Part shown: one piece after another, positions 1,854-26,952 of the stretch
Numbering within the stretch: position 1 is the stretch's first letter
Layout: each line of letters begins with the position of its first letter
Virus record (IMG/VR): IMGVR_UViG_3300030106_003744
Location: 1-27,865 of that record
Length of the DNA: 27,865 nt
Source: a virus
Direction: 5' to 3' (one strand)
Position numbers and translations under genes: made by a program
The notes under the pieces: generated by a model
What the model was told of the DNA's origin: nothing
What the model saw: only the letters and a program-made list of their open reading frames with translations
Database searches by the model: none

Positions 1854-2059
1854 GTTTTTTAAAAAGTATGATAGCTGATAATAAAGAAGAGATTATTAAT
1901 AAAATATTTGATGATGAGTTGCAGAAAAAAATTGTTGATAAGTTAAATGAAAATGTTGACATTCCTTTTATATCAGAAAAAACAGAAGAAAAAGTATTAA
2001 ATGCTATTTATGACTCTATTGAAGATGTTGTAAAAAATGCAATGATAGAAAAACTTTAA
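1850..2059 (+). CDS. Small acidic helical protein of unknown function
   Basis: The protein has 69 residues, mostly predicted helix, rich in Asp, Glu, Lys and Ile, with no cysteine and no membrane segment. Two similar halves are separated by an IPFISEKTEEKV segment. It starts in an ATGA overlap, preceded by AAGGAG, and ends in a TAATG overlap with the tail gene. Position suggests a small virion, chaperone or lysis accessory factor. Function unknown. Confidence 0.65.
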   Translation: MSFLKSMIADNKEEIINKIFDDELQKKIVDKLNENVDIPFISEKTEEKVLNAIYDSIEDVVKNAMIEKL

Positions 2060-5000
2060 TGCCACCAAAAGTATTTAAAATACCACTATTAACAGGTGGA
2101 ATAAATAATGAAGCTGATCCAGCTTATATAAAAGATGAAGAATCTACAGCTTTAAATAATTTTATACCTAATATAAGAGGTAGGCTTAGACTTTCAGGCA
2201 CTATGATGGTAAAGCCTTTAAGTTATAATGATTCTGATACATCTTTAGCATTAGCTACTACCAATGCTTATCACACATCAGGATATGGATTATATTATTT
2301 TAGATCAGATTATACAATGTTATCTGCTGAAAATACATATCTTAGTAATGGTAATCCTAATGAAGTTTCATCTGGAATAGGTTATTATGTATTTCAAGAT
2401 AATAAATATGTTAAAATATATGATCCTATTAATAAGTTTTTTTTAACTACTAATATAAATGGTGCTACAGGTGCAAGGGCTGGTGTAGCTGGATCTGATA
2501 TAAGTACAAAGCCTTATGTTTTACCTGTATATTATTATGGTGATAATGCATTAAGGATATCTGCAGCACATACAGAAGGTGTAGGTGGATCAACATTTCA
2601 TAGAAGATATCTAGGTTTTATAAATAGAACCTTATTTGATGGGGATGGATCTACTTATACAGCATTTAGGAATCATAAAAGATGGTATCAAGATACTGCT
2701 AAAATACTACCTCCATCTGCATCAAGTTATACACAAGATGTAGGAAGTGAAAAGCCAGGTAAAATGGCTATAAATTTTCAAAATGGTGCAGTTGGAAGTG
2801 ATTTAACTTTTTCTAATGGAAAAGAAGGAGTTCATATTGAAGTTGCATATAGTCAAGCTCTTACTAGCTCAACATGGCAAGCTAAAGTTTATAAATTTTA
2901 TGGAACTTATATTTATGATGGCTCTCAAGAATCAAGTGTATTTGAACTAGGTGAAATAGGTGCAGGTGGAGTTTCTGCTAATACAGCTATTGCTATAGGT
3001 TTAACAGTTACATATTCTGATAATGATGATAATGCTCAAGCTACCACTAATGGGTATATATCTAGTACTGGAGGGGGAACAGGTTTACATATAAATCCTA
3101 GAATAACAGGATCTAGATTATATTTTTCTGATCCAGATGATGGACATGGTATATTATATCATTTACTTGATATAGATTTTATTAAAGGTTGCAAAAAAGT
3201 TGATGAATCTTCTTACACAGCATGGGCAGCTAGATCTGAAACAGATCATGAAACATATCAATGTCCAGATGGTGTTATGGCTAATTTAGGTGGAAATGGA
3301 ACGACAGCAGGTTTTTTATTTGCTAATCCTCCTAAAATTGTAACATATGAAGATATAAATGGATATGGTCCAAATGAAGATTTAAATCCAGAATTTAATT
3401 GTGCAGCTATGATAGGCAAAAGAGTTTATATAGGCAATGTTAAAGTCAATGGTGAAGTTTTTAATGATAGAATTATGAGATCACCTTTAAACTTTGAAGG
3501 TAAGCCTCAATTTGATACATTTCCTGAAACTCATTTTTTAGATATTGGAGCTGATGATGGAGATAAAATAATACAACTTATGGCTAGTGGTGATAAATTA
3601 ATTGTATTTAAAGAAAATTCAGTTTCAGTTTTAAATGTTTCAAAATTTGGTGCAGAATTTATAGAACAAAGTTTTAAATATGTTGGTATAAAAAATCCTT
3701 GTCAAGCTGTAAGTACTAACTATGGTGCATGTTGGGTTAATCCTAATGGTTGTTTTATTATAGAGAATAATAAATTAATAAATTTAGTTGATAATAAAAT
3801 ACTTAAACAAGGTCAACTTAAATCTTATCAAAAAAATATGTTATGGAATTTTTCTGACAAAGATTATAATAATGTGCCTTCTATAGGTTATTATCAAAAA
3901 CAAGACCAGTTGATATTGGCTTTTAATATAGCTAAAGAAGCCCCTTCTAGACCTAAAGATTGCTGGATATATAGTTTTAAATCAGGTGCATGGTCTTTTC
4001 ATGCAGGAGCTATGGATACTTATCAAGTTAGAAGTAATTTTATTAATAATAATTTAGGTGAGCTTTTACAAACTGGTGGCTATTATAATGGAACAAGTGC
4101 AACTGATGATAAATTAACTTTGTCTTACTGGAATCCTTTGTCAACTTCTAAAGATGAATGTGTTTATGCTACTAAAGATTTAAATTTTGGTTCTCCAGGA
4201 ATTAATAAAAAAATATATAAAGTAGGAATTACTTATTCTACTAGCCAACCATTAACAGGTATACAGCCTTTTTTTGCTATAAATGGAGATGATGAAATAG
4301 CTCAAACATTTGTTAGTAGTCAAGGTGAGTTAAATGGCAGTGGCATAATAGAAGCAGAAGCAGGATCTATATCTACAGAAATATTAAAGTTTTATGAAAA
4401 TGGTGTTTATAAAGTAAATGATTCATCTAATAATTATTATTTAATACAAGGCTCTCAATGCAATGAAGGTGGTGTAGTAGGAGATAAAGCATATATACAA
4501 TATGAAACTGATGTTACTGGATCAAATTGGACTATAGCATCAGGATCATCTTTTTTAAGTATAGCAGGTAATTTGTTTGTGTTTACAGGATCTGGTGATG
4601 CTGTAGCCACACATACATTTAGCACTACATCAGCTATAACAAGTCATGCTCCTCATGTATTACAATTTAATATTGTTGATATAGCTACAAACATGACTAT
4701 ACAAATTATTGGACTAAATATAGAAGATGGTGGAGAAACTACATTAGCTACTCCATCTCAATATACTGATACTGGAGTTAAAACAGTTTCATTTACACCA
4801 ACTACAAGTCATACTACATATAAAATTAAATTTTTAAATTCAGGTTCATCAGGCATAACTACTATAAATAATATAAATTTAGAATCAGCTTTTATGTCTA
4901 TTAATAATACAGGTGGTGAATATCCTAGAAACATTATATATAATTCTGGAACATCTACTGTTACAAGATCAGGTGGACTTATTACTAGTAATCAAACTAA

Positions 5001-5562
5001 TACTAGTGGCAATCATTATATTACTATATCAAATAATGTAAAACATCAAATACAAGTAGAATTAAGCAATACTATAGGTGTTGGTATAAAAGTAAGATTA
5101 ATAGATGTTGGAACATCTTCTACAGCCCTTCCTAATTTAAAAGATATTTCAGGCTATGATAGCAACTCAGGTAGTACATATCCACAATCTGTACCATTAG
5201 AAGGAGATGGAATAGATGGAGCATCAGCAGATTTTGCTACATTAAATTTTGATTCACCTAATGTAGCTACTATTAATACTGTTAGTGCATTAAATACTAG
5301 TAATAGATATTATATAGTTATAACAAATGATAGGCCATCAGGACTTGTAGATGGGTATCCAACAGATGTATTTATAGTAGGATCATTGTCTATGAGAGAA
5401 GTAGGTAGTTACAGAACAGGTTTTTTAAACTTTGCATCACCTATAACATGCAAGTCATTTCAATTTATGTTAAAAAATTCTGGAACTGCTAATGCTTCAT
5501 TTACTGTTAGAGATGTAGAAATTTTTTATAGATTATTAAAACCAAAGTTAACATCAGATTAA
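2059..5562 (+). CDS. Tail nozzle-like (tubular protein B type) virion protein with inserted beta-sandwich domains
   Basis: The protein has 1167 residues. The N-terminus (KIPLLTGGINNEADPAY, then EESTALNNFIPNIRGRLRLSG) follows the pattern of phage tail nozzle/tubular B proteins, in which a GGI motif leads to an 'lNf.p..rGrlr' motif. The C-terminus (FTVRDVEIFYRLLKP) is also typical of that family's last strand. Residues of roughly 755-1116 look like an insert: Ser/Thr/Gly-rich beta sequence containing two units that resemble carbohydrate-binding-like jelly rolls (ending INNINLES and GSLSMREV). That makes it longer than T7 gp12 (about 800 residues). It should form the distal tail and possibly touch the cell surface. 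It starts within TAATG with no Shine-Dalgarno site, so coupling is likely. Confidence 0.75.
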   Translation: MPPKVFKIPLLTGGINNEADPAYIKDEESTALNNFIPNIRGRLRLSGTMMVKPLSYNDSDTSLALATTNAYHTSGYGLYYFRSDYTMLSAENTYLSNGNPNEVSSGIGYYVFQDNKYVKIYDPINKFFLTTNINGATGARAGVAGSDISTKPYVLPVYYYGDNALRISAAHTEGVGGSTFHRRYLGFINRTLFDGDGSTYTAFRNHKRWYQDTAKILPPSASSYTQDVGSEKPGKMAINFQNGAVGSDLTFSNGKEGVHIEVAYSQALTSSTWQAKVYKFYGTYIYDGSQESSVFELGEIGAGGVSANTAIAIGLTVTYSDNDDNAQATTNGYISSTGGGTGLHINPRITGSRLYFSDPDDGHGILYHLLDIDFIKGCKKVDESSYTAWAARSETDHETYQCPDGVMANLGGNGTTAGFLFANPPKIVTYEDINGYGPNEDLNPEFNCAAMIGKRVYIGNVKVNGEVFNDRIMRSPLNFEGKPQFDTFPETHFLDIGADDGDKIIQLMASGDKLIVFKENSVSVLNVSKFGAEFIEQSFKYVGIKNPCQAVSTNYGACWVNPNGCFIIENNKLINLVDNKILKQGQLKSYQKNMLWNFSDKDYNNVPSIGYYQKQDQLILAFNIAKEAPSRPKDCWIYSFKSGAWSFHAGAMDTYQVRSNFINNNLGELLQTGGYYNGTSATDDKLTLSYWNPLSTSKDECVYATKDLNFGSPGINKKIYKVGITYSTSQPLTGIQPFFAINGDDEIAQTFVSSQGELNGSGIIEAEAGSISTEILKFYENGVYKVNDSSNNYYLIQGSQCNEGGVVGDKAYIQYETDVTGSNWTIASGSSFLSIAGNLFVFTGSGDAVATHTFSTTSAITSHAPHVLQFNIVDIATNMTIQIIGLNIEDGGETTLATPSQYTDTGVKTVSFTPTTSHTTYKIKFLNSGSSGITTINNINLESAFMSINNTGGEYPRNIIYNSGTSTVTRSGGLITSNQTNTSGNHYITISNNVKHQIQVELSNTIGVGIKVRLIDVGTSSTALPNLKDISGYDSNSGSTYPQSVPLEGDGIDGASADFATLNFDSPNVATINTVSALNTSNRYYIVITNDRPSGLVDGYPTDVFIVGSLSMREVGSYRTGFLNFASPITCKSFQFMLKNSGTANASFTVRDVEIFYRLLKPKLTSD

Positions 5563-8205: not shown

Positions 8206-11200
8206 ATGGTATATGATCCTAATAAAAGACATTTTACTTTAGAGGAATTTGGAACAGAACTTAAACAAAAATTTCCAGATGAATTTAATGATGTTGGTGC
8301 ACTAGAAGCTGCACAAATTGAACTAGACAACAATCCCTACTACAAAGATTACATACTAGATTATTATGAAGATAATTTAGATGTTTTTGATAAAACTCTT
8401 GGTGCATTGCATAATACAATATATGGTTTTGCAGGAATAATAAAAGACATAGGTACAGGTACTTTAGGATATGGAGCTGCAGCATTAGAAGCTGTAGAAG
8501 ATTCTAAAAAATATTTAGCTAATCAACTAGGATTAGATGATTTAGTCTCTTTTACACCTATTGGTAAAGTTGATGATTTGTTTGATAAATATCAAAGTTA
8601 TAAAGGCACAAAGCTAGCCAATGGACAAGACTGGGATAGTTCTGTAGCTAAATTTTATCATAATCAATCTAGATTTTTAAAAGAAGAAGGTGACAAAATA
8701 TTTAATAATTATGTAGAAAATAGTGAAAATCTTCATGGTTATTTAGAATGGACTCAAAATACACCATATAGTTTAAAAAATACTTTTGAATATCCTTTTA
8801 GTATGACAACAAGAGCAATGAGTGATTTAGGACCATCTATTGCTACATATGCTGCAGCTGTATATTATGGTGCTCCAGTATTTCTTACTGGTGCTATTAT
8901 GGAAGGTAGTGGTGAATATAATACAGCTATGGAAAGATTAAGAAAAAAATCTGAAGACAAGGGCGAAGTATTTAATCCTGCATCAGTAAGCAAAACAGCT
9001 TTAGCTGCATCTACAGCTTATGGATTACTTTCAGGTTTAATAGAAAGATTTCAACTAAGATCTATTGGTAAGGCTGCTGGTTTTACTAAAAAAGCTACTA
9101 AAGAAAAATTTATAGAAAATATAGCTGATAAAATAGATGACAATATAAAGAAAACAGGTGGATCTGTTGCAAATATAACTAACTTATCAAAAAAAGCTGC
9201 AAGTATTGGACTTAGAAATGTAGATCAAGTTTTAAGAGCTACCTCAGAGGGTATTCAAGAAGGTATGCAACAAACTACTGCTGAAATAATAGGTAATGTA
9301 TATGACAAGTATGATGGAGATATAGAATTAGCAGCTAAAAATTTTGCTAAAGATTTATATGGAGATGTATCAGAAGAAAATTATAAAGATAGGATGCAAA
9401 GTTTTTGGTCTGGAGCTTTAGGTGGATTTGGTTTAGGAAAGCTAGGTCGTGGTTTAAATAAACTTGGACAAGGATATAATAAAAGATTTAGAAATGATTT
9501 AAGAAATAAAAAAGATCAAGAAATAAATCAAGCTATAAGTGAAGATATAGGTGTTGATTCAGCTCCTATTCCAGCTGTAGTAAATCCAAAGACTGTTGAT
9601 AAAGTCTCTAATATAAAAGACTTTGTATTTGGTCCTGAAAGCTTAACAGAACAAGATGATATTAATATTGAAAATATATCAAATAGAGGAGGTCAAGTTT
9701 TAGATCCATCAGATAGATTTGAATTAGCTGTTGAACATTTAATTGAAGATCCAGGAATAATAGATAGAGGTGAGCTTGGTGAAGTTTCAAGAAGTGATAT
9801 ATTATTTAATATAGAAAATAATGATTTTGTAGATGTTTTATCTGATAATCAACTAGCACAAATAAAAGAAACTTTAGGTGAAACAATAGCACCTGAAGGT
9901 GTAGAAAGAATAGATGATCCTGTCATAGAACAAGTTCCAGATACATCTGAAGTTATAAAGCCAACAGAACAACCTGAATTAGATGTATTGCAAGCTAAGC
10001 TTGATGATGTTAATAAAAAACTGCAAACCAATGTTACTGGTAAATTAAAAGCTAAATTAGAAAAAGATAAAATTGAATTAGAAAAGTCATTAGGTGTAAC
10101 ACCTGAAAAAACTGTAGATACTAGTGTTGATCCAGCTATTTTAGCTGAAAGAAAAAAAAGACAAGATAAATTTATAGAAGAATCTAAAAATAAAAGTTTA
10201 GAAGAATTAAGAGGGGTAGCTAAAGCAAGAAATATTCCTAATTTTAATAATTTAAATAAACAACAAATATTAACAGCAATATCTAATCAAGAGCCTTCTA
10301 GGTTGCCAGAAGAAATTCTTGATGATTCAAAATCTAAACAAAAGTTAAAAGATATTATAAATAAAGGAAAAAAGAAAGTAGTTCCTTTAGTTAAAAAAGG
10401 AGATTTAAAATACAAAGCAGCTGAAGAAGTAATTGGAGATGATGTAAGTAAAATTATAGAAGAACCTATTGAAAAAATTAAAAATCAACAAATAGATTAT
10501 CAAAAGCCTCAAAAAGGTAAGAAAGTTGTTGACAACAAGCAAACTGCAAAAGAATTAGCTGCAAGATTAAAAAAGAAGTTTCCTTATATAAAGCAAAAAG
10601 AATTAGAAAAAGTATTAGATGAAGAAGGTAATGAAGTAGCAGGTAGAGCTTTTAAGGCTGTTGTAGAGTGGTCTAAGGGTAAAGCTACACTAGATACAAT
10701 ACCTCATGAATATGGGCATTTATTTATTAGAATAATGAAAGATAGTCCTATAATTAAAGAAGGTATAAAAAGATTTGGTAGTGAAGAAAAATTAGTACAA
10801 TACATGGGTGAGTATTATGCTAATAAAATACAAGATAAAAAATTATTATCTAGATTTAAAACATGGTTAAGAAAATTTAGAAATGAATTAAAAAACTTTT
10901 TTGGCATGGCATTGACAGATAAACAATTAGGCAATTTAATATCTGAAAGATTCTTCAGCTATGATATGAAAGAAAAAGATTTATTTCAACTATTAGAGTT
11001 TGATACAATAGATTTTCAAAAAATAATTAGGACATCTAAATTTAGAAAAGTATTAAATAAAGCATTTGATTCATCTTTTGAAATAGCTTTATTAAAAATA
11101 AAAGATGGTATGTTAGATATTAATACATATATAGATATTATGGAATCTAATTTACCTGAAAGATATAGAGAAAACTTTAGAGATTGGCTATCAAGCAGAA

Positions 11201-14200
11201 AAGAATCTAATATACTAGGTTTTAATTCTATAAAAGAAAGAGTAGCTAAGTCATTAGAGACTAATCCTTTAAATCATAATCCTATTCAATACAATACTAG
11301 TGTAGCTACAATAGAAACACTGCAAAACTTTTTAGACAATGAAATAGCCTTGCATGAAGGAGAGCATGATTCTAGGTCTAATGGTAATGAATATGCTATT
11401 GGAGTTTTAAATTTATTTAATGTTGATATATATAGAAATGAAGCATTTAAACTTTTTGAAGCTGCAAGAAGTAAAAGTTATGCTGATTGGAAAGTTAGTA
11501 ATTTTATACCTTTACTTAATAGTAAAGGTAAGTTGCAAAAAGATTTAACTAAAGATGAAGAAAGAAGAGCTAGAAGATTATATTATGTAACTACTAATCA
11601 AGTAGAATCTAATAGAGGTATAGCTCATAAGTTAATTAATCCTATTACTCTTATAAGAAGAGGTAGTAAAGAATCTCCTATATTTGATTATAAATATATT
11701 GCAGAAAGTCAAAGAGTTTATACTAAGCAGTATAAAAAAGGATTTATACAAGAACAAGCAAAGTTTTTAACAAATTGGATTTCACATAATATACCACATA
11801 TAGCAGGTATGAGTAGAGGTATGTCTGTTTTAAATGGTAGAAGTGGATCCTCTATGTTTTTTGTTCCTGATGCTGATGGAAATTTAATTCAATCTTATGA
11901 GTTTTTAAATGTTGATGATTTAGTTAAACTGCAAAAATCTGCAGTTATGAGAAACAAGACTATTATATTTACTAGAGGTGATAATAAAAAATTATATTTA
12001 GCTGATATATCACCTATACATAAAAATCATGCTAAAGATGATAAATCTTATAAAACATTTTGGGACAATGCTTTAGAAAAAGGTTATATAACTAAAGATC
12101 AAAATAAAACATTTTTATCAATAAAAGATAAAGTTCAAAGAGAAAAAGAAATAGCTTCATTTGAATATACTAATGCTTTATTTCCAGGCTACATGAAAGA
12201 TTCTTTTGAGAATGTATTAAAAAGAATTAAAATACCTTTGACTCCATCCTATGTCAGTGATGAAATGCCTGACTTAAATACTTTTTATATTAATACAGAT
12301 AAAATTAATTTTAGATATAAAGGTAAGTCTGTAGAAGGAATAAAAAAGATTGCAGATGTTGGAGATACTTATATAGGAGATGGCAATACTTTAACAAGTA
12401 GAAATACTATTCAAACTATTGCTAATATATTTGGTTTAAATCCTAATACAGGACATCTTAAAACTATTATATATGATGTAAGTAGAAATAAAGATAACAA
12501 AGGTAATTTAAAAAACATTAAAGATGTTGATTTATTAATGATTAAGCATCAACAAAGTATACCAGAAGCAGGTTTAGAAATATATGATGGAGATACTTTA
12601 ATAGGAAGAGTAGATAATTCAAACAATATTATAGCTGCTGATGGTAAAACTATTATTGATATGATACTAACTAATGATGAAGCTAAAAAAGCTGAAGGTA
12701 AGTATAATACTAATAATTTTATAGTTAAAGGTAGTAGCCTTGGTTTAATTAAAATGGTTAATAAAAAGAAAAAGAAAGTTAAATTTCCTCTTCAATGGTT
12801 AAATCATTTATTTAATACAGATTTAATTAATATAATAAAAGAAGAATATGCTGGAACAAATAGTAAATCATATAAGATAATGAGCAATACAATTAATTCT
12901 ACAGCAGATTCTAGTAGTCTTAAATCTTTAGTAAATACTCTAAAAAGAAGTTTTCCTGATCAACTTAGTAGTGCTTTATATGACTTTGTAAATAGTGAGT
13001 TAGGATTTCATCCAGCAGCTAGTTATGGTTTAGAAACATTAATAAGGTCTAAATTATTTAATCCTGCTTTCAATATGGATAATCAAGATGGAGTTATGTT
13101 GCAAATGACTCCTAATTATGTTGAAGATTTAAATACTGATGAAATAGCAATAGGAATTTCTGATGCTACACAAATTATTAAACAGTATAAAAAAGAAACT
13201 AATAAGAAGTCTCCTACCATAGAAGAGTTAAATAGTTGGTTAGCTAATAATGATATTAGAGTATTAGCATATAGAAGTCCTATTCCATATATAGGTGGTG
13301 CAGATTATGTTAGAATAAAAAGAGTGCATAATATAGATGGAACAGTGCAAGTAAATACAGAAACTACATTTAGACAATATGAAGGAGATCATGATGGTGA
13401 TCATCTAGTCTTGCATTTTGTAAGTGAAAAGTTAGATCCTGTATTTAAACAATATTTTAAATCTGAAGAATATTTAAATTTAAAAAGAGGATTAGATTTA
13501 TCTGAATTTGTTGTTAGTAAAAATATAAACTCTGCTGTACAAGATGATAGATTTAGTATGATTGAAGCAATGATAAAAGGTGAGTCAGCTATTGGAGAAG
13601 TTGCAAAGGTTCAAGGTATTTATGGCTTAATAAAGCAGACATTTAATTATTTAGATGTAGATGGTGTTAGAATAGGATTGAATACAGGTAATGTTGATTT
13701 ATCTTTTATGAAGCCAGGATATAAAGATACTGTAGATCATATGTTAAGAATATATATACAAGCATCTGTAGACAATGCTAAGTTTTTATTACTTGACAAA
13801 TGGAATTATAGTCAAAGAAGTTTAATACAAAAATTATTTGTAGTTCAAAATGGTGTATATAAAGGTAAAACACTAGAAGATGTTATGAATGATAGATTGG
13901 GCTATGGCAAAAAACTGTATGATAAGCTTTATAAAAATTTATGGACAAAGTATAAAAAAGTTTATGATGTAAGAAATATGGGAGACTATACTGATGGTGG
14001 TTATGATATAGATAGAATTATTGAAGAATCAAATAATGTTTTAAGTTATAGTGAAAATAGAAAGTCTAGCTATGTAACTGAAAGTAGTTTTAAAAATGTA
14101 CAAACTATTTTAGAATCTATAATTTCAATGCCTTCAGCTATATATAATAATAAAATATTAAATAATCCTACTAATCATAAAGAATCTATAATGAGATATA

Positions 14201-14712
14201 GTAATGAAACTTTATTAGCTAGTCATATAGAAGCAGTTGAAACATTATTGCCTAGATTAGAAGAAATAAAAGAAAAGTATAAAGCTTTTCCTAAAGAATT
14301 TGAATTAATACAAGGTAGAATAAATACTTTTATTAATATGTTAAATACTAATAATCTTGAGTTTAGAAAAATAATGCCTTTAATGTGGGAACAGAATGAA
14401 ACATTTCTTAAAGTTAGAGATAATGTAGCTAGGTATGTAGAATCTTTTAAAACAGAAGATAAATGGGAAGCTTTTACTATTATGTATTTAGATACATTAT
14501 TAAGATCAGATGTAAAAGCAACTAAATTTAAAAAACCTGCACAAATAAATATAGCTAGATTAGAAAAGCTTTTGCCATTAGAGTTATTGCATAAGAAAAC
14601 TATAAGTAAGTATATTAAAAATTATAATAATCATTTATTTAGAGATGTAACACAAACTGATAAAAATATGATGAATAATGAAAAATTAGTAGATAAAGGG
14701 TGTCAATTGTAA
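8206..14712 (+). CDS. Giant virion protein with zinc-protease motif and RNA-polymerase-like catalytic barrel motif
   Basis: The protein has 2168 residues. The order seen is: an N-terminal 'TLEEFG..LKQKFPDEFND' segment; hydrophobic segments near 206-236 and 262-285; a charged Gln/Glu/Lys linker of about 480-800; HEYGH at 834-838 with a following acidic segment (MGEYYANKI) as a possible third zinc ligand; and a C-terminal region resembling multisubunit-type RNA polymerase. There, R1690-x-P1692 precedes EGDHDGDHLVLHF, with Asp1728, 1730 and 1732 matching the Mg-binding DxDGD of beta-prime-type barrels. A VDNAK motif follows at 1855-1859. K1508 and K1516 (K-x7-K) match the lysine spacing of the beta-type barrel. 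I infer a virion-delivered RNA polymerase like phi14:2 gp66. It has no clear Shine-Dalgarno site. The alternative is a catalytically dead polyvalent protein. Confidence 0.7.
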   Translation: MVYDPNKRHFTLEEFGTELKQKFPDEFNDVGALEAAQIELDNNPYYKDYILDYYEDNLDVFDKTLGALHNTIYGFAGIIKDIGTGTLGYGAAALEAVEDSKKYLANQLGLDDLVSFTPIGKVDDLFDKYQSYKGTKLANGQDWDSSVAKFYHNQSRFLKEEGDKIFNNYVENSENLHGYLEWTQNTPYSLKNTFEYPFSMTTRAMSDLGPSIATYAAAVYYGAPVFLTGAIMEGSGEYNTAMERLRKKSEDKGEVFNPASVSKTALAASTAYGLLSGLIERFQLRSIGKAAGFTKKATKEKFIENIADKIDDNIKKTGGSVANITNLSKKAASIGLRNVDQVLRATSEGIQEGMQQTTAEIIGNVYDKYDGDIELAAKNFAKDLYGDVSEENYKDRMQSFWSGALGGFGLGKLGRGLNKLGQGYNKRFRNDLRNKKDQEINQAISEDIGVDSAPIPAVVNPKTVDKVSNIKDFVFGPESLTEQDDINIENISNRGGQVLDPSDRFELAVEHLIEDPGIIDRGELGEVSRSDILFNIENNDFVDVLSDNQLAQIKETLGETIAPEGVERIDDPVIEQVPDTSEVIKPTEQPELDVLQAKLDDVNKKLQTNVTGKLKAKLEKDKIELEKSLGVTPEKTVDTSVDPAILAERKKRQDKFIEESKNKSLEELRGVAKARNIPNFNNLNKQQILTAISNQEPSRLPEEILDDSKSKQKLKDIINKGKKKVVPLVKKGDLKYKAAEEVIGDDVSKIIEEPIEKIKNQQIDYQKPQKGKKVVDNKQTAKELAARLKKKFPYIKQKELEKVLDEEGNEVAGRAFKAVVEWSKGKATLDTIPHEYGHLFIRIMKDSPIIKEGIKRFGSEEKLVQYMGEYYANKIQDKKLLSRFKTWLRKFRNELKNFFGMALTDKQLGNLISERFFSYDMKEKDLFQLLEFDTIDFQKIIRTSKFRKVLNKAFDSSFEIALLKIKDGMLDINTYIDIMESNLPERYRENFRDWLSSRKESNILGFNSIKERVAKSLETNPLNHNPIQYNTSVATIETLQNFLDNEIALHEGEHDSRSNGNEYAIGVLNLFNVDIYRNEAFKLFEAARSKSYADWKVSNFIPLLNSKGKLQKDLTKDEERRARRLYYVTTNQVESNRGIAHKLINPITLIRRGSKESPIFDYKYIAESQRVYTKQYKKGFIQEQAKFLTNWISHNIPHIAGMSRGMSVLNGRSGSSMFFVPDADGNLIQSYEFLNVDDLVKLQKSAVMRNKTIIFTRGDNKKLYLADISPIHKNHAKDDKSYKTFWDNALEKGYITKDQNKTFLSIKDKVQREKEIASFEYTNALFPGYMKDSFENVLKRIKIPLTPSYVSDEMPDLNTFYINTDKINFRYKGKSVEGIKKIADVGDTYIGDGNTLTSRNTIQTIANIFGLNPNTGHLKTIIYDVSRNKDNKGNLKNIKDVDLLMIKHQQSIPEAGLEIYDGDTLIGRVDNSNNIIAADGKTIIDMILTNDEAKKAEGKYNTNNFIVKGSSLGLIKMVNKKKKKVKFPLQWLNHLFNTDLINIIKEEYAGTNSKSYKIMSNTINSTADSSSLKSLVNTLKRSFPDQLSSALYDFVNSELGFHPAASYGLETLIRSKLFNPAFNMDNQDGVMLQMTPNYVEDLNTDEIAIGISDATQIIKQYKKETNKKSPTIEELNSWLANNDIRVLAYRSPIPYIGGADYVRIKRVHNIDGTVQVNTETTFRQYEGDHDGDHLVLHFVSEKLDPVFKQYFKSEEYLNLKRGLDLSEFVVSKNINSAVQDDRFSMIEAMIKGESAIGEVAKVQGIYGLIKQTFNYLDVDGVRIGLNTGNVDLSFMKPGYKDTVDHMLRIYIQASVDNAKFLLLDKWNYSQRSLIQKLFVVQNGVYKGKTLEDVMNDRLGYGKKLYDKLYKNLWTKYKKVYDVRNMGDYTDGGYDIDRIIEESNNVLSYSENRKSSYVTESSFKNVQTILESIISMPSAIYNNKILNNPTNHKESIMRYSNETLLASHIEAVETLLPRLEEIKEKYKAFPKEFELIQGRINTFINMLNTNNLEFRKIMPLMWEQNETFLKVRDNVARYVESFKTEDKWEAFTIMYLDTLLRSDVKATKFKKPAQINIARLEKLLPLELLHKKTISKYIKNYNNHLFRDVTQTDKNMMNNEKLVDKGCQL

Positions 14713-17700
14713 TGAGAGGAATTATACCTAAAAAATGTAAATCATTGTCAGGAGATACAGTTAAAGCTTCTGATAAACAAAGAGTAACAGAATATCTAGT
14801 TCAAACTGCAATTAATAAAAAGTTTCCTATTGAAAAAAACACTCAACAATTTTTTAATTTAGTTTTTAAAAAATTAAAAGGCTTACCTACAAATACTTTA
14901 GTTACTGAAAATGAATTAGATTCTATTTTAGAAAAACAATTAAAAATTTTTAATAAAACAGCAAAAAAGAGATTAAAGCCTCATCCATATAAAAAGATTT
15001 TTAAGATTCATCTTATGTTAGGTAGTAATGAAATACTTTTAAAAAGTTTTCTAGATAATTATACTGGTAAAATATTGCCAGTCAAATCAGCTAAACTTAC
15101 TAAAGAAGAAAGAGCTTTAGGTGCAACTATTGTACCATTGGATAGAGCTCCTTTATCTACTATAAATTCTTTATATGCACAAATGGAACAAACTTATAAT
15201 GCTAAAGGTGAAAGATATTTTAAAGGGTTTACAGGCAATTTAAGACTAATGTTTAACAAAGGTACAAGAATAAAAGATTTTGATCCTACAGGTGGGTTAA
15301 CTAAAGTAATGGCAGCTACAGAAGCATATGTAAGTAAAGTTAGTGGGCATGTAGCTAAATGGCTTGGTGTAGAAAATGATTCAGGCAACATTGTTTCTGG
15401 AATGAGTCAAATTTATAATGATATTAAAAAAAATATAAAAAGTGATTTAAATGATGATGATCAATTTAGAATGACACAATTATTTAATATGATAATGCAT
15501 AACTGGACTTATATTGAACATAGCTATATTGATAAAAAAGGCAATAAAGTTATAGTAGATGCTAAAAAACTTTATTCTTTATCTCCAGATAAAAAAGCAA
15601 AATTTATAAAAGATAATAATATAAAATCATCTGTAATGATTCATTCTAATTATGAGCCTATAGTAGATCCAAAAGAAAAGTTTAATCCAGAGTTTTATTA
15701 TTATGACAAAGAAAATAAAGTTTGGAGATATAAGCTTACTAAAGATATAGTTTATAATTATAGTAAACCTATTAGTATGAAAGATTATATTAATGGTAAA
15801 AGTTTAAACAGTAGTCAAAAACAAGATTTAAAAGATAAAATTTATTTAGATGACTCTGTTAGATTTGTATTAAATGCTAAAGATTTATATGATAATTTAT
15901 TGACTAACAATTTAAGTCAAGACAATTTAATTAAAATGGGTGAAAGTGTAGATAAAGCAAGAAACATACATAGTAAAGTTTTTCAAGATTTAAAAAGAAG
16001 ATTTGAGCTATTAAAACAAAATTATATAAAAGAAATACATAAATGGATACCTAATACAAGAAATAATGAAAAGTATTTAAATATTATAATTGATGCTGTA
16101 AAAACAGGTAATATAAATCCTTATACTAATAAAGAAATATTTGATGAAGATTATGATTCTATTTTATTTTTAAAAGATACATTTGGTGGTTTAATATTTA
16201 CTGATCCATATTTAACAGGTGAATCAACTATATTAGAAAAAAAAGACAGTTTTCCTATAGAATATGATAGTACTAGTATGTTTTATATGTATCAAAATTT
16301 ATTATATGATAAAGAACAAGATTTAAAAGGTATTAATGAAGCTTTAAAAACTGCAACAAAAAGAGAAGTTAGAATATCATTAAACAATTCTAAGAAAAAA
16401 GTTGAAGCATCTATAAGAAAAATACAAAGAAATCAAGCTATGTTTAATGATCAAGATATTGATTTATTTTCTGGCAAAACTAATTATAGTCCTAGAAATG
16501 CTGTAAACTTTAGAAATATTTCCAATGCTTTTGATATTAGAAATATGAAACTAGGTGAAAATATTTATGAAAATTATTTAAAAAGAATGTATCAAACATT
16601 AGAAAAAAGTAATTTAGCAGTTGAAATTATGGGTGGAGTTAGATTGTCTGGAACAGATAAAACAAATAGATTTAATACCTCTACAAACCCTATAACTGTT
16701 GATTATGCTTTAGAACAAATGAAAGCAGTATTAAGTAGTCCAGATATAAAAGGTAATTTCTTTGGATATAATTTAAGTAACAGTAATATTATTAGAGCAA
16801 TTTATGAAAAAACAGGTATTAAAATTAATGAATGGAAAGCTAGTAAATATAATAGAATATTAAGTTCATTTTTCACAGGTGGTTATTTAGGAGGAATATC
16901 AACTGCAGTATTGCAAAGATCTGTAATACTTAATAAAAAAATAGCTTTTGGTTGGAATAGTACAAGAAAAGCAAGAGAAGTATATAATAATTATAGAAAA
17001 GAAATAAATGAATTTGTTGCAGCTACAGGTGTTACAGATTGGACAGATTATTTTTCATCTGAATTATTTGGAGATTTAGCTCAAATAGAAGTTACTACTA
17101 GAGAAGAAGCTATTAAAATAACACAATATACTTTAGAGTATCATAATGATTTATCTAAAGGTATGAATAAAGATGTAGCTTTTAAAAAGTTAACAAATAA
17201 AATTACTAATATTGTTAAACAAGTTCCAGGTGTAAAAAAATTATTAGAAACATCTATAAAAAATATATTAAAAGATCCTGATTTACCTGCAAATTTAAAA
17301 GCTAAATTAAAAGCCGATAAAGAAAATAAACTATTACATATTGTAAATAATTATGCAAACTGGGCTATAACAAGAAACTTTTCTTCTTATCCAATTACAA
17401 AAGATATTAATATTGTTCAAAAAGCATTAAGAAAAAAAACACAGTTTTATGCATGGTTAAGTAGATCTGTCAAAGATCAAGCACCAGCAGTAATTGATTT
17501 TATTACTATGTCTGAACAAGAAAAAGACATGAGATCACAAACTGTTATTATAACTATGCAAATGATGCAAGATAGTGGTATGTTGTTAATAAATAATAGA
17601 GAAAATGGTTTAGATATATTTGATGCTTTAAGAAAAAAAAGGAATAATGAATTAACAACTGAAGAATTAGATATATTAAATAAAGATTTAGAATTAATAA

Positions 17701-18488
17701 TTAAAGTAGCAAGACAACAAGTAGCACAAATAGATATGATGATGACTACCTCAACTTTAGGACAATACAATAGAAATTTTGGTGGATTACATACTAGATT
17801 TACAACATATACTCAGCAAAAATTTGGATCAGAAGTAACTTTATTTAGAGAATATTATAGATCATTAGATATTAAAACAAAAAATGGATTGCATGGAAAA
17901 GAAGTTTTAAGATTAATTAGACTTTTATATGAAGATTTTAAAGATATACTAAAACCTACACTTTCATTAACATCTAAATCAAGACAAAGAAAAATAGAGG
18001 CTTTGTGGGAAAAAAATCCTGAATTAGCAAAATTAAGACTTTTTATATTAACTCAAGGAATTGCAACAGCATTATTTGAATTTGGATTTTTTACAGCTCT
18101 TGGACCAGGTCTAAGATCAATTTTATATGGACTTGGATCACCAATTAATCCTATGAAATTAGTACAAGGTATAAAATCTAGCATAGGAAGTGCTTTAGCA
18201 TTGCCTGCTTATTTAATATATGCATATTTTAATGATGATGATGAAGAGGATGTAATGGAAGAAGCAGCATGGGCTTTAAAAAGTAATCCTATAGTAGGAT
18301 ATGGAACAGGTGAATCTTTTGATATGATGCTTTATTTAATGAAGTTAATAAATAATGAAGATGAAGAAAAACAAGCACAGGACCTTGTAAATAGAATAAC
18401 ACCGTTATTGCCATTGCAAGGCCCTGAAAGAATAGCATTTAGATATATTGGTAGTCCTGCTATAGTAAATGCCATTAAAGATGATTAA
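14712..18488 (+). CDS. Giant virion cargo protein of unknown activity
   Basis: The protein has 1258 residues when started at the ATG inside the upstream stop (TAATG), the junction type used throughout this operon. A GTG at 14700 would add four residues. It is a basic, Lys/Asn-rich helical protein. A hydrophobic cluster near the C-terminus (ALFEFGFFTALGPG, then ALALPAYLIYAYF) is followed by an acidic run (NDDDEEDVMEEAAW), and the protein ends SPAIVNAIKDD. No catalytic motif is evident. Its size and its place after the polymerase-like protein suggest a co-ejected protein, comparable in role to T7 gp16 or the large cargo proteins of crAss-like phages. Its stop codon overlaps that of the convergent gene on the other strand. 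Confidence 0.65.
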   Translation: MRGIIPKKCKSLSGDTVKASDKQRVTEYLVQTAINKKFPIEKNTQQFFNLVFKKLKGLPTNTLVTENELDSILEKQLKIFNKTAKKRLKPHPYKKIFKIHLMLGSNEILLKSFLDNYTGKILPVKSAKLTKEERALGATIVPLDRAPLSTINSLYAQMEQTYNAKGERYFKGFTGNLRLMFNKGTRIKDFDPTGGLTKVMAATEAYVSKVSGHVAKWLGVENDSGNIVSGMSQIYNDIKKNIKSDLNDDDQFRMTQLFNMIMHNWTYIEHSYIDKKGNKVIVDAKKLYSLSPDKKAKFIKDNNIKSSVMIHSNYEPIVDPKEKFNPEFYYYDKENKVWRYKLTKDIVYNYSKPISMKDYINGKSLNSSQKQDLKDKIYLDDSVRFVLNAKDLYDNLLTNNLSQDNLIKMGESVDKARNIHSKVFQDLKRRFELLKQNYIKEIHKWIPNTRNNEKYLNIIIDAVKTGNINPYTNKEIFDEDYDSILFLKDTFGGLIFTDPYLTGESTILEKKDSFPIEYDSTSMFYMYQNLLYDKEQDLKGINEALKTATKREVRISLNNSKKKVEASIRKIQRNQAMFNDQDIDLFSGKTNYSPRNAVNFRNISNAFDIRNMKLGENIYENYLKRMYQTLEKSNLAVEIMGGVRLSGTDKTNRFNTSTNPITVDYALEQMKAVLSSPDIKGNFFGYNLSNSNIIRAIYEKTGIKINEWKASKYNRILSSFFTGGYLGGISTAVLQRSVILNKKIAFGWNSTRKAREVYNNYRKEINEFVAATGVTDWTDYFSSELFGDLAQIEVTTREEAIKITQYTLEYHNDLSKGMNKDVAFKKLTNKITNIVKQVPGVKKLLETSIKNILKDPDLPANLKAKLKADKENKLLHIVNNYANWAITRNFSSYPITKDINIVQKALRKKTQFYAWLSRSVKDQAPAVIDFITMSEQEKDMRSQTVIITMQMMQDSGMLLINNRENGLDIFDALRKKRNNELTTEELDILNKDLELIIKVARQQVAQIDMMMTTSTLGQYNRNFGGLHTRFTTYTQQKFGSEVTLFREYYRSLDIKTKNGLHGKEVLRLIRLLYEDFKDILKPTLSLTSKSRQRKIEALWEKNPELAKLRLFILTQGIATALFEFGFFTALGPGLRSILYGLGSPINPMKLVQGIKSSIGSALALPAYLIYAYFNDDDEEDVMEEAAWALKSNPIVGYGTGESFDMMLYLMKLINNEDEEKQAQDLVNRITPLLPLQGPERIAFRYIGSPAIVNAIKDD

Positions 18489-19269: not shown

Positions 19270-19284
19270 CCCCAAAACACAATG
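19270..19284 (-). promoter_or_regulatory. Variant copy of a repeated intergenic motif
   Basis: The sequence CATTGTGTTTTGGGG matches the exact motif CTTTGTGTTTTTG at 24543-24555 and 26940-26952 in 11 of 13 positions. As in those copies, it lies a few bases after a TAA stop and ahead of the ribosome site of the next gene. It is followed by GTATAAAATAAGG. A promoter role is inferred. Confidence 0.35.
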
Positions 19285-24465: not shown

Positions 24466-24489
24466 TTATTCTCCTTTTGATAAGACGAG

Positions 24490-24514
24490 AAAGGACTACA
24501 ATATGTAGCCCTTT
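24490..24514 (-). ncRNA. Intergenic hairpin upstream of the Sak4-like gene
   Basis: In leftward RNA, AAAGGGCUACA pairs with UGUAGUCCUUU across a 3-base loop: 11 pairs, with one G-U and no mismatch. The rightward strand has an A-C mismatch at that position. No U-run follows in the leftward direction. It lies about 24 bases before the ATPase start and downstream of a copy of the repeated CTTTGTGTTTTTG motif. It may protect or process the mRNA 5' end. Confidence 0.5.
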
Positions 24515-24542
24515 TCTGCCTCATAATTTAAGATAAAATAAT

Positions 24543-24555
24543 CAAAAACACAAAG
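24543..24555 (-). promoter_or_regulatory. Repeated 13-base motif CTTTGTGTTTTTG, candidate promoter
   Basis: This exact 13-mer also occurs at 26940-26952, and an 11/13 match lies at 19272-19284, all in leftward orientation. Here it lies two bases after the TAA of the 70-residue gene and is followed by AT-rich DNA before the Sak4-like gene. The shared position after gene ends and before ribosome sites suggests an internal promoter, or another intergenic signal. Confidence 0.4.
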
Positions 24556-26915: not shown

Positions 26916-26939
26916 CTTATCTCCTTCTTTGTTTAAACC

Positions 26940-26952
26940 CAAAAACACAAAG
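26940..26952 (-). promoter_or_regulatory. Repeated 13-base motif CTTTGTGTTTTTG, candidate promoter
   Basis: This copy directly abuts the TAA of the 89-residue gene and is followed by GGGTTTAAACAAAG and then the ribosome site of the next gene. The first bases (CTTTGT) can pair with ACAAAG at 26932-26927, giving a 6-bp stem that the other copies do not share. See the copies at 24543 and 19270. Confidence 0.4.

Follow-up and report, generated by a model that had tools for sequence, protein, structure and literature searches.

The virion RNA polymerase of the podovirus N4 is a giant, injected single-chain enzyme which is T7-like and unrelated in fold to the two-barrel RNA polymerases (RNAPs). To our knowledge, few virion RNAPs of the two-barrel fold have been studied, namely gp66 of the crAss-like phage phi14:2 and gp96 of Thermus phage P23-45. 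In phi14:2 the polymerase gene (gp077, encoding gp66) is the second-last and precedes a gene of ~1420 aa (gp076), the products of both being virion proteins by MS/MS. The trigger-loop lysine of gp66 is K1615 (PMC8713982), and virions of phi-crAss001 carry RNAP proteins as cargo (PMC10172136).

We analysed a linear viral fragment of 27,865 nucleotides (henceforth the window), in which an open reading frame at 8206-14712 (+) encodes a giant late protein of 2168 aa with a putative polymerase at its C-terminus. An earlier note, made from the sequence of the window, had read motifs in this region as those of an injected two-barrel polymerase; as detailed below, the fold and the catalytic residues of that interpretation stood, while its pair of barrel lysines did not. 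In this uncultured marine phage, the giant protein very probably ends in a single-chain RNA polymerase that takes up its C-terminal half and shares its basic architecture with the enzymes that transcribe our own genes.

Fold of the C-terminal region and its viral relatives

Used alone as a query, the window protein finds only its near-identical twin, a contig of 48,095 bases (G001) with ~97% amino-acid identity to the window over the 2168-aa protein. Searches of the window protein against Pfam, PHROGs and PDB sequences detected no RNAP and gave no Pfam or PHROG match above threshold, and tblastn with the RNAP region and three relatives as queries detected no polymerase relative among 50,697 deposited phage records. 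A terminase scan yielded hundreds of related viral contigs. The protein was matched in 5 of the 31 terminase-related contigs searched, the RNAP region being the matching part in four (28-32% identity, E 1e-64 to 1e-84, in ORFs of 2517-3790 aa). Relatives carry the domain either at the C-terminus of ORFs of up to 3790 aa or in ORFs of ~1490 aa, the latter in G013 and G014, where it was found by reading the contigs directly. Alignment-based scans gave 33 loci and then 13 further ones, making a family of 46 phage loci; the family alignment (A4) holds 40 sequences with 22-41% identity to the window, two of which match Pfam RdRP weakly (E 0.006).

Two other contigs of the terminase group, G030 and G032, show DADFDLDK/DADFDFDK in a protein of ~3100 aa (L104, 7833-17027 (-), and L106, 627-9989 (-)). 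Neither gave a family match, though the giant ORF occupies the corresponding place, and the best alignment of the family profile in G030 lands on RTP...DFDLD. These two contigs probably carry a more divergent polymerase.

The RNA polymerase region comprises residues 1210-2168 (11833-14709, +), of which about 1230-2168 would make up the enzyme itself. An AlphaFold2 model built from the single sequence had a pLDDT of 32 and was discarded, whereas the model built with A4 reached a pLDDT of 87.4 and a pTM of 0.84. When the latter was compared with the PDB using Foldseek, phi14:2 gp66 ranked first (6vr4; E 1.7e-13, probability 1.00, TM 0.51 by query length), followed by QDE-1 (7y7s; 1.4e-9), P23-45 gp64 (8f72; 5.4e-6) and P74-26 gp62 (8f5m; 9.6e-6). 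Cellular largest subunits (beta-prime/RPB1) ranked after the single-chain RNAPs, and a gp96 structure is absent among the PDB matches listed. Against predicted viral structures, unnamed viral proteins came top (TM 0.82 and 0.81), with crAss-like proteins lower. Computation on the predicted model thus shows the fold class to be that of the two-barrel RNA polymerases, in agreement with the earlier proposal of a two-barrel polymerase; its closest kin in fold is the single-chain gp66. Profile-profile comparisons (hhalign) were weak, with E-values of 0.0023 for the crAss family (over 56 columns only), 0.01 for gp96 and 0.1 for gp64, and no match was obtained with the gp66 sequence on its own. Each time, the single best alignment with the crAss RNAP family, gp96 or gp64 was the RxP...DxDxD stretch.

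Catalytic residues of the polymerase region

All motifs from which the two-barrel reading had started (R1690xP1692, D1728/D1730/D1732, VDNAK and K1508/K1516) lie exactly at the positions given for them. The metal-binding DxDGD (D1728-H-D1730-G-D1732; 13387-13401, +), found within EGDHDGDHLVLHF, retains all three aspartates in 40/40 sequences of A4 and in every site-covering locus of the two scans; loss of these residues in relatives, which the earlier note had named as grounds for abandoning its reading, was not seen in the same sequences. R1690-x-P1692 (13273-13281, +) is equally invariant (40/40) and aligns with the R-x-P of P23-45 gp96 and of gp66. Together with a dN/dS between the window and G001 of about 0.16 in the RNAP region (0.21 in the remainder of the gene), this invariance makes the motifs more than chance resemblances, and the Asp triad and RxP sustain the proposed beta-prime-type catalytic barrel. 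The RNAP domain is shown by computation to be under purifying selection. Further positions invariant in A4 (40/40) are H1448, D1491, E1492, K1494, E1726, Q1852, A1853 and D1856.

Following the catalytic barrel, a helix of 34 residues (1779-1812; 13540-13641, +; model helix 570-603) is probably the bridge helix, and VDNAK at 1855-1859 (13768-13782, +) is probably the trigger-loop motif, as it matches FVDNAKDP of gp66. The gp66 lysine K1615 lies in this stretch; its window equivalent, K1859, stands in a column split between Lys (21 of the 40 sequences) and Glu (19). The histidine of DHDGD, which had been regarded as an unusual replacement, occupies a free column (Y, G, H, N, S or A at position 1729). 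Seven of the 40 sequences (L135, L136, L137, L140, L143, L156 and L157) have DxDHD for DxDGD, always with VDHPK for VDNxK/E, and this may be a single change because the seven look like one clade by sequence. Loss of a catalytic Asp in clade L135-L144 was considered and rejected, the motif there being DxDHD with every Asp kept.

The two lysines assigned to the beta-type barrel in the earlier note, K1508-x7-K1516 (12727-12753, +), are not kept by relatives: Lys occurs in 4/40 sequences at K1508 and in 26/40 at K1516, the K1508 column having Pro in 24/40 and Pro, Ser or Ala in most relatives. Given that K1508 is usually proline in relatives, this pair was rejected as the beta-barrel lysines on conservation. 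K1419 (12460-12462, +; strand at model residues 208-216) and K1447 (12544-12546, +; strand at model residues 234-242) are invariant instead (both 40/40), and ahead of them lies an Asp-Gly, D1392-G1393 (12379-12384, +), that is also invariant (40/40). K1419 and K1447 fall on two successive predicted strands, and their spacing is usually 15 residues in relatives and 28 in the window. The gp66 family has an invariant Lys pair, K1012/K1027, likewise 15 apart, with which we would equate K1419/K1447. From these alignments, K1419 and K1447 appear to be better candidates for the beta-barrel lysines than K1508/K1516.

Gene context, candidate early promoter and proposed role

The 2168-aa gene is the penultimate one of the rightward late operon, preceded by an endolysin gene (983-1495), a gene for a 1167-aa protein (2059-5562) and three smaller ORFs, and followed by a 1262-aa gene. 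The 1262-aa protein (14700-18488) has no convincing family match, and in relatives, too, an ORF of about 970-1300 aa comes next after the polymerase. The genes after the late operon are leftward and include RusA, DUF932, Gam/Gp157, primase/helicase and Sak4. G001 looks complete, and circular or circularly permuted, because both of its ends interrupt one primase/helicase gene (250 + 334 = 584 aa). In this 48-kb genome no polymerase was recognised besides the candidate RNAP. A search of G001 and of a relative, G033, for T7-like RNAP (PF00940) was empty, as it was for the control genomes; the absence of such an enzyme is therefore judged from the early region, which has no large ORF left without an assignment.

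The N-terminal half of the giant protein contains HEYGH (residues 834-838; 10705-10719, +), a zincin-like metalloprotease motif. The zincin-like region (residues 780-917; 10543-10956) matches the human-gut phage MT835645 (33%, E 1e-11), which is the sole match of the full 2168-aa protein among phage records and whose long genes appear broken under table 11. A Rho_N-like DNA/RNA-binding segment was seen at residues 661-693 (10186-10284), slightly under the Pfam cut-off (E 2e-5). In two relatives, the N-terminal part of the giant RNAP protein has an FtsK gamma domain (G020, L098 6562-14331 (-), E 3.5e-25; G017, L095 3361-11739 (+), E 2.3e-20), a DNA-sequence-reading module that may perhaps serve in handling entering DNA.

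The early strand of the window phage and of its nearest relative bears the motif CTTTGTGTwTTTGGGT, in most cases directly ahead of early genes. The window has it at 26939-26952 (-) as CTTTGTGTTTTTGG, with a homologous site in G033; at 24542-24555 (-); and at 19271-19284 (-). The first and the third of these sites precede the start codons (ATG) of ORFs of 88 and 84 aa by 23 and 21 nt, respectively, and the second precedes the 247-aa Sak4-like gene by about 76 nt. In L007 of G001, sites on the early strand lie at 5557, 6201, 7981 and 10682 (+); this locus has 5 motif matches against 0.41 expected, and 0/200 shuffles reach 5. G033, whose RNAP is 38% identical, has the motif four times on the early strand (31193, 33391, 35924 and 36128 (-)). 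Weak matches with two mismatches in the late part (window 5865, L007 578) are probably due to chance, and a quick de novo search of more distant relatives, covering all but the last two genomes, gave no clear early motif. Where the distance to the ATG is about 21-23 nt, a Shine-Dalgarno-like stretch lies in between, which would put the start site within about 10 nt, unlike in a sigma-70 promoter. On this arrangement, we regard CTTTGTGTwTTTGGGT as a candidate phage early promoter, and its presence ahead of the leftward genes indirectly supports the polymerase starting them. Between the candidate promoter and the Sak4-like gene, the hairpin-like AAAAGGGCTACATATTGTAGTCCTTTCTC (about 24470-24515, -) is also found in G001 and G033 and perhaps represents a terminator or an RNA element.

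We think it quite probable that the protein is a single-chain two-barrel DNA-dependent RNAP of the gp66/QDE-1 type that is packed in the virion, ejected and transcribes the leftward early genes. The polymerase, fused at the C-terminus of a large late-operon protein bearing a zincin-like motif, would be packed together with the ejection proteins, enter the cell before or alongside the DNA and there transcribe the leftward early genes from the compact CTTTGTGTwTTTGGGT promoters. Gene position, analogy with gp66 and gp96 (PMC10770324) and the motif make both packaging and early transcription likely.

Alternatively, an active two-barrel RNAP might stay unpackaged, being produced late to serve within the cell, either in transcribing late genes or in priming replication. 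A two-barrel RNAP outside the virion is known from P23-45 as well (PMC10770324), and the window phage has a primase/helicase but none of its early genes was recognised as a DNA polymerase; however, the domain is fused into a late-operon protein of 2168-3790 aa with a zincin motif, its positional counterpart in phi14:2 encodes a virion protein, and the early strand is the one that bears the candidate promoter motif, all of which make this improbable. Less probable still is a polymerase-derived domain that has lost polymerisation and acts as a structural or ejection part: Glu in place of the trigger-loop Lys (19/40) and DxDHD in place of DxDGD (7/40) would fit such a loss, but the three Asp, RxP and both lysines (K1419/K1447) never vary among sequences with 22-41% identity to the window, and the domain is under purifying selection. 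That short motifs merely look alike by chance within an unrelated tail or ejection protein would agree with the window protein having no sequence-family match, but this is strongly disfavoured to the point of being negligible, given that four different single-chain RNAPs, gp66 first, match in fold at E < 1e-4 and that the motifs are invariant in 40 sequences.

Relation to described single-chain RNA polymerases

We lean slightly towards the protein representing a separate virion two-barrel RNAP lineage of uncultured marine short-tailed phages, found in no cultured phage searched, which tolerates DxDHD together with Asn-to-His in VDN, and a trigger-loop Glu in half of its members, and whose branch in the window would read a compact non-sigma promoter. 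We know of no other family in which DxDHD with the VDN Asn-to-His change, or the trigger-loop Glu, has been noted. Such a lineage adds a broad marine group unrecognised by sequence libraries and natural variation at catalytic positions previously thought fixed. The candidate promoter of this small genome (48 kb) means that sigma-free promoter finding by injected two-barrel polymerases can be examined using a single protein and a short piece of DNA.

Among the described enzymes, QDE-1 (RDR) offers the second-best fold (E 1.4e-9), but it is cellular, functions in RNAi and shows no sequence-level membership. P23-45 gp64 and P74-26 gp62 match in fold (E 5e-6 to 3e-5), and gp64 has DxDGD, but both are small non-virion enzymes (~600 aa). 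P23-45 gp96 resembles the window protein in joining an RNAP to a giant virion protein that also has a metallopeptidase, the counterpart here being the zincin-like motif, and its RNPVMGHGG...DFDGD aligns with RSPIPYIGG...DHDGD of the window, with an hhalign E of only 0.01. By contrast, the RNAP of gp96 is N-terminal, lacks the clamp and belongs to a siphovirus tape measure, whereas that of the window is C-terminal.

Membership of the Crassvirales is not indicated for the window phage, whose genome is 48 kb: its TerL is nearest to podoviruses, e.g., Roseobacter phage CRP-4 (26%), and not to crAss phages among the matches listed, and tblastn with the RNAP gave no crAss-phage match. The polymerase of phi14:2 (Phi14:2_gp077, PDB 6VR4) nevertheless shares with the window protein a single chain, RxP, DxDxD and VDNAK, a penultimate place in the late operon and a length of about 2170 aa, while differing in having DFDID for DHDGD, in sequence similarity that is only local, and in the C-terminal position that the polymerase takes in the window protein. 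The window polymerase is a new, divergent lineage of an already known kind of enzyme.
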